A program made the position numbers and the translations under genes. Shown piece by piece: positions 212-5,086 of a stretch of 5,086 nt of DNA. The stretch comes from a bacterium (GTDB taxonomy: Bacteria > JAHJDO01). Under the pieces are notes generated by a model. The model was given only the letters and a program-made list of their open reading frames with translations. It did no database searches and was not told the origin of the DNA. The stretch's first letter is position 1; every line of letters starts with the position of its first letter. The stretch lies in NCBI GenBank assembly GCA_030611945.1, contig JAUWOV010000099.1:1-5086 (forward strand), given 5' to 3'.

Positions 212-631
212 ATGGATACAAGCTGTATGTTGAGCCAACGAAAAGAAAAGACGCTGCACGATAGGATGGAACGACTTGGCATTAATGAATCAGATATCAC
301 TGAACGTTTTGTCCGTTCCAGCGGCGCAGGCGGACAAAAAGTAAACAAGACCTCAACATGTGTTTATCTTAAACATATCCCTTCAGGTATTGAGGTCAAA
401 TGCCAGAAAGAGCGCTCACAGGTGCTTAACAGGTTCCTTGCCCGCAGGATACTGGCTGACAAAATAGAACAGGTTCAGCTAGGCAAGAAAAGCGAAGAAG
501 CGAAGCGCATTGCCAAAATAAAGCGACAGAAACGCAAGAGATCAAAGAGAGCAAAAGAGAAAATTCTCAGAGCAAAAAAAATTCAGTCGGAAAAGAAAAA
601 ATCCCGCTCGTTTAAATTAGAAGACGAATAA
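212..631 (+). CDS. Release-factor-like peptidyl-tRNA hydrolase (GGQ protein)
   Basis: This is a 139-residue member of the class I release factor superfamily reduced to the catalytic domain, comparable in plan to ArfB/YaeJ, PrfH and mitochondrial ICT1/C12orf65. The signature RSSGAGGQ..NKT is visible, with GGQ at residues 40-42. This loop enters the ribosomal peptidyl-transferase centre and promotes hydrolysis of peptidyl-tRNA. Following residues resemble RF2 (KCQKERSQ, then N.FLARR). The stop-codon-reading domain of RF1/RF2 is absent. From about residue 95 to the end the protein is extremely Lys/Arg-rich; in ArfB such a tail lies in the empty mRNA channel of stalled ribosomes, so a rescue role is inferred. 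The ATG at 227 (residue 6) is an equally plausible start: the following segment leading to ERLGI fits the family N-terminus, and neither start has a strong Shine-Dalgarno. The family call is secure; the exact substrate state is not. Confidence 0.9.
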   Translation: MDTSCMLSQRKEKTLHDRMERLGINESDITERFVRSSGAGGQKVNKTSTCVYLKHIPSGIEVKCQKERSQVLNRFLARRILADKIEQVQLGKKSEEAKRIAKIKRQKRKRSKRAKEKILRAKKIQSEKKKSRSFKLEDE

Positions 632-696: not shown

Positions 697-963
697 ATGG
701 GAAGACATGAAAAGTTGTTACTAAAAATCCTGAGCGGTTCTTCAGACCGAAATATTGGTTTTAACGATCTTCGTAGTTTCCTGAAAAGAATGGGGTTTGA
801 AGAATATACTAGAAGTAGTCACCATATGTTTAGAAAAGAAGGTATTGAGGAGAAGATTAATCTTCAAAAGGAAGGCAATAATGCCAAACCTTATCAAGTT
901 AAACAAGTACGAAATGTTATCCAGAAATATGAGTTAGGAGGTTTATCTGATGCACAAGTATGA
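697..963 (+). CDS. hicA: HicA family toxin (mRNA interferase)
   Basis: This 88-residue protein is the toxin of a type II toxin-antitoxin pair. HicA proteins have a small double-stranded-RNA-binding-like fold and cut mRNA independently of ribosomes, halting translation until HicB neutralises them. It belongs to the longer HicA subfamily: an N-terminal helix-rich part (LLLKIL..SSDRNIGFNDL), then FLKRMGF, then the catalytic segment RSSHHMFRKEG with paired His at residues 42-43, and finally the KPYQVKQVR segment ending in a helix. Family members usually have Gly-Ser-His at the catalytic site; here it is Ser-Ser-His (S40-S41-H42), so the Gly is replaced. The ATG at 697 is preceded by a promoter-like sequence rather than a ribosome binding site. 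The 3' end overlaps hicB by 14 bp. Family assignment is strong; activity is inferred. Confidence 0.93.
   Translation: MGRHEKLLLKILSGSSDRNIGFNDLRSFLKRMGFEEYTRSSHHMFRKEGIEEKINLQKEGNNAKPYQVKQVRNVIQKYELGGLSDAQV
936..941 (+). promoter_or_regulatory. Shine-Dalgarno site of hicB inside hicA
   Basis: A full AGGAGG lies 8 nt before the hicB ATG at 950, within the hicA coding sequence. It settles the hicB start. It also contrasts with hicA, which has no such site, so the antitoxin may be translated more efficiently than the toxin from the shared message. Confidence 0.85.
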
Positions 964-1162
964 GGTCGTGATGTACTGGAGTGGCGAAGATGACGCGTTT
1001 GTTGCGGAAGTACCCGAACTTCCGGCTTGCATGGCTCATGGAAGCACTCAGGAGGACGCTCTAAAAAACATCAACGAAGCTATGCAACTTTGGATTGATA
1101 CAGCACGTAAGCACGGTGATCCTATTCCAGAACCAAGATGCCATCGTCTTATGTATGCATAA
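950..1162 (+). CDS. hicB: HicB family antitoxin
   Basis: This 70-residue protein is the partner of the upstream HicA. HicB antitoxins bind HicA and cover its active site through a partial RNase H-like fold. The typical pattern is visible: YEVVMYWSGEDDAFVAEVPELP near the N-terminus, then a Cys-Met-Ala-His-Gly turn (residues 27-31), the helix ST.EDALKNI.EAM..WID.A, and the ending GDPIPEP....RLMYA. This minimal form stops right after the RNase H-like part and lacks the C-terminal helix-turn-helix or ribbon-helix-helix domain that longer HicB proteins use to repress their own promoter. Self-regulation would therefore need another DNA-binding protein or none. Expression is coupled to hicA by the 14-bp overlap, and it has its own strong AGGAGG site. 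Confidence 0.94.
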   Translation: MHKYEVVMYWSGEDDAFVAEVPELPACMAHGSTQEDALKNINEAMQLWIDTARKHGDPIPEPRCHRLMYA

Positions 1163-1289: not shown

Positions 1290-1517
1290 ATGGGCGTGAT
1301 ATCTATCAGATTAAACAAAAACGAAGAGAATGTCTTGAAATATCTTACTAATTTATTTGACAAGGACAGATCTTCAATAATTAAAGATACTTTAGTTGAA
1401 AAATATGAAGATTTACAGGATTTAAAAGCTATAAAGAAATTTGAAAAAGACGAAAAGAGTGGTAACGCCTCTTTTATATCTGCGGAGGACGCTTTAAAGG
1501 ATATTTTGAAAAATTAA
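1290..1517 (+). CDS. Ribbon-helix-helix antitoxin-like protein, no toxin partner
   Basis: This 75-residue protein resembles the CopG/RelB-type antitoxins (DUF6290-like). The N-terminal strand GVISIRLN is followed by two predicted helices (NEENVLKYLTNLF and SSIIKDTLVEKYED), the standard ribbon-helix-helix DNA-binding layout that dimerises to bind an operator. The C-terminal half is charged (DLKAIKKFEKDEKSG) and ends with SAEDALKDIL, similar to the toxin-wrapping tail of RelB-like antitoxins. Such genes normally sit just upstream of a RelE/ParE toxin. Here only 46 nt follow before a retropepsin-like protease gene, and no toxin-like reading frame is seen. It has no clear Shine-Dalgarno. Its upstream region is mostly the 76-bp repeat, which may supply the promoter. 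It could be an antitoxin that lost its toxin, or a regulator of the downstream genes. Confidence 0.75.
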   Translation: MGVISIRLNKNEENVLKYLTNLFDKDRSSIIKDTLVEKYEDLQDLKAIKKFEKDEKSGNASFISAEDALKDILKN

Positions 1518-1553
1518 GAAAAAGGCTAAAATATTTTGCAAAACAAAACGAAA

Positions 1554-1560
1554 GAGGTGA
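1554..1560 (+). promoter_or_regulatory. Shine-Dalgarno site of the protease gene
   Basis: GAGGTGA lies 3 nt before the ATG at 1564. The spacing is short but the match is good. It supports this start and fits translation from an mRNA begun upstream of the 1290 gene. Confidence 0.7.
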
Positions 1561-1563
1561 AAA

Positions 1564-1950
1564 ATGGGAAGGATAGTGACAACAGTTGATATTGAGAACG
1601 TTTCTGATTCAGGCACATCAATGAAGCTTGACGCTCTTGTTGATACTGGCGCAAGTTATCTTACATTACCGCATGCTTGGAAAGAACGTTTTGGGAAATT
1701 CAGTTCGGAAGAAACTGTTGAACTTCAAACTGCTACGCAAGAGATAGTGAAAGGAACTGTATGCGGCCCGGTAAAAATAAAAGTTGAAGGATTTAGGGCA
1801 ATCTACAATGAGATTTTATTCCTGGATATGAAGCCGAATAACGGGGAATACGAACCACTTCTTGGGTATATTGCGCTTGAACAGTGCGGAGCCGCTGTGG
1901 ATATGATTGGTCATCGCTTATTACCAGTAAAGTACATGGATGTAAAATAG
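1564..1950 (+). CDS. Retropepsin-like (clan AA) aspartic protease
   Basis: This 128-residue protein has the layout of a single-domain retroviral-type aspartic protease, active only as a homodimer. The catalytic motif Asp-Thr-Gly-Ala-Ser is at residues 27-31, preceded by the hydrophobic strand LDALV and followed by YLTLP, as in the family. The middle (TATQEIVKGTVCGPVKIKVEG) fits the flap and following strands. Near the C-terminus LLGYIALEQCGAAVD corresponds to the hydrophobic-Gly psi-loop, and the protein ends with the family's HRLLPV-like strand. There is no signal peptide or membrane segment, so it should be cytoplasmic. Substrates of these small bacterial clan AA proteins are generally unknown. 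It is probably co-transcribed with the antitoxin-like gene 46 nt upstream. Family call is firm; function is not. Confidence 0.88.
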   Translation: MGRIVTTVDIENVSDSGTSMKLDALVDTGASYLTLPHAWKERFGKFSSEETVELQTATQEIVKGTVCGPVKIKVEGFRAIYNEILFLDMKPNNGEYEPLLGYIALEQCGAAVDMIGHRLLPVKYMDVK

Positions 1951-2976: not shown

Positions 2977-3822
2977 TCAAATTCTTCCGTATTTCCTATT
3001 CAAATAAATAGTTGCTAGAACATCAAGCAGTTTATCTGGAAGAATACGTTTTAGATATGAGGCAAGGTAAGCCTCTTTAGTAACTAAATATCTGATCTTG
3101 GGTCTCTTACTCTCCAAAGCATGCTTAACTTTTTTATAAAGAGCATCAGGTCCGGGAATGTTCTTTTTTGTTTCCTTTGACCGCCTGTATTTACCCATTT
3201 TTTCGTATATGTCTTTGTAATGACTGTTCTCAGGCGGATTGACCTGGTTTTGAAAGATGGCTAAGGCGTTTTTACTGAAATCGCTTTTAATGGGACCGGG
3301 TTCAATAATAGAGACATTTATACCTGTGTTTCTAAGTTCAAGCCGCAATGCATCGGAGAGCGCTTCAAGAGCAAACTTTGATGCAGAGTACGCTCCCATA
3401 AACGGAGTGCTGAATCTTCCGGCAGCAGAACTTATATTAATAATACGGCCTGTTTTGTTCCTGCGGAATATTGAAATTATTTGATTAGTAAGTTCATGCA
3501 CTCCGAACACATTGACTTCAAACTGCTTGCGCATAGCGTCTCTTGTTATATCCTCAAGAGCTCCTGAATATCCGCATCCTGCATTATTAATCAGCGCATA
3601 CAGTTTTCCATCTGTTTTTTTGGAAACATCCTTAACCAGTTTTTCAATAGACTCTGAATTTGTTACATCAAGAAAAAAAGCATCAATTCCTTTGCTCTTC
3701 AAATTCTCAATATCCTCTTCCTTTCTCGCAGTGGCAAACACATTCCATCCATCCTTTTGCAAGGATTCAGCCATATACAACCCAAGTCCTGACGAACATC
3801 CTGTAATTAATACTGTTCTCAT
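2977..3822 (-). CDS. Short-chain dehydrogenase/reductase (classical SDR)
   Basis: This 281-residue NAD(P)-dependent oxidoreductase carries every classical SDR element. The N-terminal cofactor motif TGCSSGLG is at residues 7-14, and Arg33 after the second strand (FATAR) favours NADPH. NNAG is at 79-82, structural Asn at 104, catalytic Ser132 (NISSAAG), Tyr145 and Lys149 (YSASK), and then EPGPI. The C-terminal third (IPGPDALYKKV..AL, then a conserved-looking KIRYLV..EAYL...KRILPDKL) resembles the YbbO/retinol-dehydrogenase-like group, so a lipid-like or ketone substrate is possible but unknown. No signal peptide is present. I chose the ATG at 3822 rather than the in-frame ATG at 3870: the TGxxxGxG motif then starts at residue 7 as usual, and AAAGGA is properly placed. 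The extra 16 codons would translate a GGCACAAAG-type repeat. It lies 40 nt downstream of the ychF-like gene and is probably co-transcribed with it. Confidence 0.93.
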   Translation of the reverse strand: MRTVLITGCSSGLGLYMAESLQKDGWNVFATARKEEDIENLKSKGIDAFFLDVTNSESIEKLVKDVSKKTDGKLYALINNAGCGYSGALEDITRDAMRKQFEVNVFGVHELTNQIISIFRRNKTGRIINISSAAGRFSTPFMGAYSASKFALEALSDALRLELRNTGINVSIIEPGPIKSDFSKNALAIFQNQVNPPENSHYKDIYEKMGKYRRSKETKKNIPGPDALYKKVKHALESKRPKIRYLVTKEAYLASYLKRILPDKLLDVLATIYLNRKYGRI

Positions 3823-3862
3823 TTTCCTTTGTGCCTCTGTGCCTTTGTTACTTTGTGCCTTC
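3823..3862 (-). repeat. GGCACAAAG-type short repeat forming the dehydrogenase leader
   Basis: Reading on the minus strand, the whole gap between the two genes is built from degenerate copies of GGCACARAG: GGCACAAAG, TAACAAA, GGCACAGA, GGCACAAAGG. Sequences of this kind occur in intergenic regions of many environmental bacteria. The last copy ends in AAAGGA, which serves as the likely ribosome binding site 2 nt before AA-ATG of the dehydrogenase. Confidence 0.6.
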
Positions 3863-4930
3863 TTACACATTAAACCTTATATCTATTATATCTCCATCCT
3901 CTACAATATATTCCTTCCCTTTAACATAGCATTTCCCAGCTTCTTTTACTTTTGCTTCTGTGCTAAGTAATATCAAATCCTCGTATTTAATAACCTGCGC
4001 TCTTATAAAGCCACGCTGCAGATCGGTGTGAATTGCGCCGGCCGCTTCAGGAGCTGTGGAATTTTTTCTGACCATCCATGCCCGAACTTCGTCTTTGCCT
4101 ACAGTAAAGAACGATATTAATCCAAGTGTTTTATAAAATGATCTTGTCAGAGCATTGACTGCCGGTTCTTCTATCCCAAGCTCAGAAAGAAAGTCTTTTT
4201 GCTCTGCTTCCGGAAGAGAGGCTATTTCAGATTCTATCTTGGCAGAAACCTGCATTACTCCAATTTTCTGCTCCTCGTATTTTTGTTTTACAGAGTCAAG
4301 AAGACTCGTATCCTTTATATCTTCTTCTCCAATATTCAAAGCTATTATCATCGGCTTCATAGAAATAAACTGATACGCCAATATGAGTTTATTCTCTTCT
4401 TTATTCAGAGGCATGGTTCGGAGAGGCAGTTCTTTCTCAAGATGAACTTTTAGTTTTGAAAGGATTTCTTTGTCTTTTTCTCTTAATGTATCCTTTTTTC
4501 TTGAAAGCTCTTTATCTATTCTTTCAAGTCTCTTTTCTATAAATATCATGTCATTCAGAATTAGTTCTGAATTAACTGCGTCTATATCCCGAATGAGGTT
4601 AATTGAACCTTCCACATGATAAACTGATTCATCTTTAAATGAGCGGACTATATGACAGAGCGCATCCACATCCGATATCTTCGTAAATATCTCTCCGCTT
4701 GATACCGTTTCCTTTTCTATCTTAGGGAGAAGCGATATGTCTATTGTTGCAGGGACCTCGCTTTTTGGTGAATACATGGAAACAAGTTTATCAAATCTGG
4801 GATCCTTTACGCTTACAACCCCCAGGATTATGTCTCTTGAATTATCCGGTGTGTTGGATTTTTGTTGTGTCAGAACTTCAAATAGAATTTTTTTACCAAC
4901 CTGAGGAAGCCCTATGATTCCTATTTTCAT
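3863..4930 (-). CDS. ychF: YchF/OLA1-like protein with degenerate GTPase motifs
   Basis: This 355-residue protein is full length for the YchF/OLA1 family of translation-factor-related P-loop NTPases, which bind ribosomes and prefer ATP. The C-terminal TGS-type part (about 272-355) is almost textbook: FFTVG.DEVRAW, STAPEAAG.IHTDLQRGFIRA, then KEAGK..VKGKEYIVEDGDI..RFNV. The middle has the usual coiled-coil (about 125-170) and KP....LNIGEED, where N199-E202 matches the family's NxxE. The G domain is eroded: Walker A reads GLPQVGKK (7-14) where the family has GKS, the switch I Thr segment is missing, and the DxxG motif is DISL (64-67), without Gly or the usual Gly-rich loop. His105 occupies the position of the flexible-loop histidine proposed as catalytic in E. 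coli YchF. It may be a paralogue with weak or no nucleotide hydrolysis. The start at 4930 places the P-loop at the N-terminus and matches the promoter spacing; it leads the dehydrogenase gene. Confidence 0.9.
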   Translation of the reverse strand: MKIGIIGLPQVGKKILFEVLTQQKSNTPDNSRDIILGVVSVKDPRFDKLVSMYSPKSEVPATIDISLLPKIEKETVSSGEIFTKISDVDALCHIVRSFKDESVYHVEGSINLIRDIDAVNSELILNDMIFIEKRLERIDKELSRKKDTLREKDKEILSKLKVHLEKELPLRTMPLNKEENKLILAYQFISMKPMIIALNIGEEDIKDTSLLDSVKQKYEEQKIGVMQVSAKIESEIASLPEAEQKDFLSELGIEEPAVNALTRSFYKTLGLISFFTVGKDEVRAWMVRKNSTAPEAAGAIHTDLQRGFIRAQVIKYEDLILLSTEAKVKEAGKCYVKGKEYIVEDGDIIDIRFNV

Positions 4931-4936
4931 GCTGCT

Positions 4937-4966
4937 ACTATAACAAAGGTCTCTTGTTTTTGTCAA
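4937..4966 (-). promoter_or_regulatory. Promoter of the ychF-like gene, predicted leaderless
   Basis: On the minus strand a perfect -35 TTGACA (4966-4961), an 18-nt spacer and a -10 TATAGT (4942-4937) precede the ATG at 4930 by exactly six bases. The predicted start of transcription is the A of the ATG. There is no Shine-Dalgarno; the six bases are AGCAGC. This is the strongest promoter match in the window and probably also drives the dehydrogenase gene. Confidence 0.75.
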
Positions 4967-5086
4967 AAAAAGACACATAGACAGAGGAGTATCCCCAAAA
5001 AGAACACTTGGAAATGGTTGTCAGGCTGTCAAGAGAAAAGTGCATTTTCCAGAGAGAAAGCCAGCAAGCCCTCCCGCTACCGTTTT

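Follow-up and report, generated by a model that had tools for sequence, protein, structure and literature searches.

The window, a 5,086-nucleotide stretch of a bacterial contig (JAUWOV010000099.1), carries on its minus strand a gene for a YchF-family protein with GKK in its P-loop (Table 1). The ATG starts at 4930, the stop codon ends at 3863, and the frame of 355 codons is open; relatives do not start at a second in-frame ATG upstream, at 4978. The TIGR00092 YchF profile matches the product over its full length (residues 2–355, 301 bits; cut-off 279.2), and the PF06071 and TGS profiles match as well. A consensus sigma-70 promoter is predicted upstream of ychF, and four genomes of the genus have it in conserved form. 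Since its −10 element, TATAGT, ends just ahead of the ATG, the ychF mRNA is predicted to be leaderless; promoter-ATG arrangements of this kind were found 13 times in the genome and 0 times in a reversed-pattern control. E. coli YchF has been reported to repress translation of leaderless mRNA (PMC8138138). None of the neighbors of ychF is conserved past the genus, except for the downstream SDR gene, for which one further match was found, so the gene neighborhood gives no functional hint.

The spacer between ychF and the SDR gene contains the repeats GGCACAAAG and GGCACAGAG, and the SDR gene probably starts at an ATG near 3822 rather than at 3870. The plus strand of the window encodes a small GGQ protein of 139 aa that combines an RF-1 domain with a basic tail. 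It may be a ribosome rescue factor, although it scores under the cut-offs of the ArfB, PrfH, PrfA, and PrfB models. A HicA-like/HicB-like toxin-antitoxin pair with a 14-base overlap also lies on this strand, as does a DUF6290 small protein gene followed by one for a 128-aa clan AA (retropepsin-like) aspartic protease with a DTGA motif.

Table 1. Features of the window and of its YchF protein.
Feature	Position	Strand	Details
GGQ protein	212–631	+	
HicA-like/HicB-like pair	697–1162	+	
DUF6290 protein and aspartic protease	1290–1950	+	
ychF-SDR spacer	3822–3862	−	
GKK-type ychF gene	3863–4930	−	355 aa; no other YchF found in this genome
TGS/YchF C-terminal domain	3866–4120	−	residues 271–355; PF06071, 127.9 bits; dN/dS 0.03–0.10
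G5 motif SAK	4238–4246	−	residues 229–231
G4 motif NIGE	4325–4336	−	residues 199–202; ATP-type NxxE
Coiled-coil (helical) domain	4379–4597	−	residues 112–184; DSSP of AlphaFold model
His105	4616–4618	−	counterpart of E. coli YchF His114; 29/29 in GKK clade
Switch II replacement LLPKIEK	4712–4732	−	residues 67–73; new conserved motif
Switch I place	4823–4852	−	TIxPN motif missing; E. coli block FCTIEPN absent
P-loop GLPQVGKKI	4886–4912	−	residues 7–15; E. coli YchF, GLPNVGKST
Predicted sigma-70 promoter TTGACA-N18-TATAGT	4931–4966	−	−10 ends 6 nt before ychF ATG

In an AlphaFold model of the protein (13 sequences; pLDDT 86.8, pTM 0.81), a G domain with a helical insertion is followed by a TGS domain in the YchF fold. 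The best PDB matches of the model were YchF/OLA1 throughout, with Foldseek E down to 1e-34. In a VIA structure comparison, YchF/OLA1 structures aligned with Z of 32–35.5 across 315–347 residues and the next-best match, an archaeal GTP-binding protein, reached Z 20; other GTPases in the PDB comparison gave only generic G-domain matches ranked under YchF/OLA1. The window protein is thus predicted to fold as a complete YchF.

The motifs of the nucleotide site were assigned by sequence alignment to E. coli YchF. In P-loop GTPases and YchF, residues Ser16, Thr36, and Asp72 have a role in Mg2+ coordination, and His114 is catalytic. As the sequence-only reading had recognized, the Walker A Ser (Ser16) is replaced by Lys (Lys14, codon 4889–4891), so that GLPQVGKK departs from the GxxxxGKS/T of YchF/OLA1, and the block carrying the switch I Thr is absent. 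That reading had also noticed the lost Gly of DxxG, which is correct but incomplete: VDIAGLVKG of E. coli corresponds to SLLPKIEKE in the window protein, and both the Asp and the Gly of DxAG are gone. The YchF/OLA1 hallmarks of a switch I Thr in TIxPN and a switch II DxxG are therefore missing, and the EGLGNQF segment is deleted. The P-loop Gly-Lys, HIVRSF, the loop His, NIGE, SAK, and the TGS signature GAIHTDLQRGFIRA are retained, which bears out the earlier remark that the C-terminal region and the presumed catalytic-loop His are conserved in an open frame. ATP preference has been attributed to NxxE (PMC8779481). Compared to canonical YchF/OLA1 (TIGR00092; PDB 1jal, 8kie, 5ee0, and 2ohf), the window protein shares the three-domain order and fold, NxxE, the loop His, and the highly conserved TGS motifs, but has Lys in place of Ser16 and lacks the switch I Thr, the switch II Asp and Gly, and EGLGNQF; with Ser16, a phosphorylation site of E. 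coli YchF (PMC8779481) is lost. Because two motifs that define the active enzyme are not there, the GKK protein, a YchF member by descent and fold, is classed here as a variant form rather than an ATPase.

PseudoGTPases are characterized by non-conservative changes of key G-motif residues in a retained GTPase fold and by an experimentally shown absence of nucleotide hydrolysis. The window protein combines such changes with the retained fold and is a candidate pseudoGTPase. The p190RhoGAP domains and divergent septins, which belong to subfamilies unrelated to YchF, likewise have their catalytic motifs replaced. In the septin Spr28 (PMC10731463), G1 contains a Lys and the acidic residue of G3 has become a Leu, a parallel to GKK YchF at the level of the motifs. 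Pseudo-forms of septins are built into assemblies with other subunits of that family, whereas the GKK form of YchF replaces the active one.

The distribution of YchF types was surveyed with one genome per species, many of them MAGs. In the window genome (90.9% complete), no canonical YchF was found; the second TIGR00092 match there is a 47-residue P-loop match. Three genomes of the same genus (G002, G003, and G004; 91–96% complete) yielded GKK YchF only and no canonical copy, and no YchF was found in another (G001; 62% complete). It is unlikely but possible that a canonical copy was overlooked in an incomplete genome. We regard the gene as the organism’s YchF orthologue and its only YchF, belonging to a divergent bacterial branch of YchF/OLA1.

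Outside the genus, too, most of the sampled carriers have no YchF besides the GKK type. Around Desulfosediminicola, seven of the nine GKK carriers examined have it alone, and two (G062 and G064) have a canonical YchF in addition; the two types occur together in three genomes, two from Desulfosediminicola/Desulforhopalus and one from Omnitrophota (G096). In a set of 54 other bacterial genomes, a divergent YchF of full or nearly full length is the only one in 22. Counts by hand from the profile-search table for 117 Omnitrophota genomes gave ~46 with a canonical form, ~27 with bit scores typical of the basic-residue form, 23 with a form of ~230 aa, a few with divergent forms of other kinds, and 16 without a clear YchF. 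Nearly all of the ~27 were confirmed from their sequences, the exceptions being one truncated and one GKS divergent form. In three Omnitrophota genomes (G098 C95, G112 C189, and G114 C26), a canonical-like ychF pair lies adjacent in tandem.

Trees were built by quick searches, with SH-aLRT rather than bootstrap support. Canonical YchF and the divergent plus GKK sequences fall on opposite sides of one branch (SH-aLRT 99–100). The tree of GKK homologues that the sequence-only reading had suggested unites 44 of 45 basic-residue rows in one clade (SH-aLRT 94), nested in a wider divergent YchF clade; L239 represents a separate second origin of the basic residue. The window genus groups with GKK sequences from Omnitrophota MAGs, Desulfosediminicola, and Desulforhopalus, which makes horizontal transfer, in one direction or the other, likely. 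The divergent GKT/GKS branch, present in many bacterial families, resembles the GKK type in having lost the switch I motif, in its TGS, and in often being the sole YchF, but it still has the Ser/Thr of Walker A and, for the most part, the Asp of switch II. A further divergent YchF from the order of Desulfosediminicola (L234 and L238–L247) has GKS/GKT (once GRK, once GRA), EYLLP at switch II, and no His loop; it accompanies a canonical copy in some genomes.

Conservation was assessed in 29 non-redundant members of the GKK clade. The Ser position is K or R in all 29, the new switch II motif has its Pro in 28 and its Lys in 22, and NxxE has its Asn in 29 and its Glu in 27. The P-loop Gly-Lys is nearly invariant, and GKK and LLPK[IL]E are largely fixed. 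In an enlarged set, K, R, or H occupies the Ser position in 51 sequences, and the switch II Asp is absent from every one of them; it is missing from only 10 of 126 sequences with Ser/Thr at Walker A. This difference indicates that the loss of the two Mg2+ contacts is coupled, with a basic side chain in the ligand’s place. For the N-terminal G domain, the GKK clade has an entropy of 1.34 bits, compared to 1.11 in canonical and 2.10 in divergent GKT/GKS sequences, in samples that differ in breadth.

Selection was estimated by pairwise NG86 dN/dS in four genomes of the genus (dS of 0.13–0.51, few substitutions per region), which are identical in frame and GKK/LLPKIE motifs. The proposed test for purifying selection gave a positive answer, with whole-gene values of 0.12–0.19. 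According to the sequence-only reading, selection keeps the ribosome-facing part and relaxes the nucleotide site. The first half agrees with our data, since TGS is the most constrained region. The second half does not: residues 1–90, which include the altered motifs, have a dN/dS of 0.10–0.19, no higher than the whole gene, and the near-invariance of Gly-Lys, NxxE, and the loop His also contradicts relaxation, as does the fact that the new motifs are largely fixed. The G4/G5 segment is the least constrained within the genus (0.24–0.49). Since no basic-residue sequence has the switch II Asp, 44 of 45 tree rows form one clade, and residues 1–90 are under the constraint just given, the nucleotide site is re-specialized, not relaxed.

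The Omnitrophota forms of ~230 aa represent a more drastic reduction. In 23 of the 117 genomes, YchF has shrunk to about 226–236 aa (L169–L188 and L225–L227), beta-1 being joined directly to the region past switch I. The P-loop, switches, His loop, NxxE, and SAK are gone; what is left is the coiled coil and then a TGS that is well conserved, and PF06071 matches two examples with 101–119 bits. No additional YchF was found in these 23 genomes. L107 and L230 are also ~230-aa YchF proteins without nucleotide-binding motifs, and comparable short forms with a longer YchF alongside occur once each in G010 and G220. In a tree of the coiled coil and TGS, the ~230-aa forms lie inside the divergent clade and outside GKK, with weak support. 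Their derivation from the GKK type was considered and rejected on this placement, and we claim no single linear series for the same reason. As these sequences show, a YchF without the nucleotide site has been tolerated and kept by many species, through a loss independent of the GKK type. According to a survey, Omnitrophota have few ribosome biogenesis factors (PMC12641178).

We favor, with moderate confidence, the view that the window protein is a conserved non-hydrolyzing YchF that still binds an adenine nucleotide, has a Lys at the place of Mg2+, and works by way of the part that faces the ribosome. The sequence shows that the residues for Mg2+ and gamma-phosphate (Walker A Ser, switch I Thr, and switch II Asp/Gly) have been replaced by conserved new ones, most notably a basic residue at the Mg2+-binding Ser. 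It also shows retention of the P-loop Gly-Lys, of the NxxE that specifies adenine, of the loop His, and of the coiled coil and TGS. The adenine nucleotide would be held with the Lys side chain in the place of Mg2+, so binding would be Mg2+-independent and hydrolysis absent or negligible; the basic residue may be a metal mimic. By homology, the protein would act on the ribosome via its coiled coil and TGS as a permanently set factor instead of a cycling switch, and in related lineages the trend would have continued to full deletion of the nucleotide site. Motif conservation, clade structure, sole-copy status, purifying selection, the full fold, and the short Omnitrophota forms count for this proposal. 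So do the positively charged cleft, favoring RNA, that the coiled coil and TGS make (PMC8779481) and the YchF-50S structure in the PDB (8kie). Points against are the invariant loop His, unexpected in a protein that no longer hydrolyzes at all, and the constraint on the G4/G5 segment, the lowest within the genus. Some P-loop proteins, moreover, hydrolyze with shifted ligands.

Complete loss of nucleotide function, which would leave the G domain as a scaffold and all work to the coiled coil and TGS, appears unlikely. The loss of both switches and of the Mg2+ ligand next to a most constrained TGS agrees with it, as does the persistence of YchF without a G site in the short Omnitrophota forms, but the near-invariant Gly-Lys, NxxE, SAK, and loop His are hard to explain with nothing bound. 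We give less credence still to an active NTPase of a non-canonical kind, in which, e.g., Lys14 and the PK[IL]E loop would stand in for Mg2+ and switch II and His105 would position the water; such an enzyme could account for the invariance of His105 and the conserved new switch II motif, but not readily for the joint loss of Mg2+-site residues in all 51 sequences. The sequence-only reading had raised the possibility of a pseudo-GTPase paralogue competing or partnering with a canonical YchF. Although Desulfosediminicola, Desulforhopalus, and one genome of Omnitrophota contain canonical and GKK forms together, the canonical partner was not found in the window genome or in G002–G004, and such a role here is very improbable. 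Of the two conditions which that reading had named jointly as refuting it, a lack of canonical YchF elsewhere and measurable nucleotide hydrolysis, the first thus agrees with the genome searches. A decaying gene or an assembly artifact, for which the lost motifs speak and nothing further, is scarcely credible given the intact frame, dN/dS well under 1, the conserved promoter, motifs shared in the genus, and 50 homologues from several phyla that have a basic residue at this position, all of which also refute the isolated decaying gene that the earlier reading had allowed for.

Descriptions of YchF/OLA1 place it among eight universally conserved GTPases/ATPases, yet it is unclear what its ATPase cycle does. 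In the open-access literature, a part of the whole, we found no published account of an ATPase-less bacterial YchF, of the GKK clade, or of the short forms. If the non-hydrolyzing reading of the GKK protein is extended to the family, YchF may have ceased to be an ATPase in graded steps in several phyla, an idea that we put forward tentatively, as one with a little less than an even chance. Switch I would have been lost first; the switch II Asp and the Mg2+-binding Ser would then have been replaced, the latter by a conserved basic residue serving as a built-in metal. On a separate branch, in Omnitrophota, the nucleotide site would have been deleted to leave ~230 aa of coiled coil and TGS. Ribosome binding would then be the ancestral and universal function, and NTP cycling an optional control. 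Since the change is shared across phyla and the site is discarded in some Omnitrophota, the “universally conserved ATPase” may not need ATPase activity, and the automatic name “redox-regulated ATPase YchF” is probably wrong on activity for whole lineages. Natural YchF proteins that lack either the Mg2+ site or the entire nucleotide site, and that have no other YchF beside them, constitute a ready-made separation-of-function series and make the need for hydrolysis in the ribosome role of YchF directly testable.
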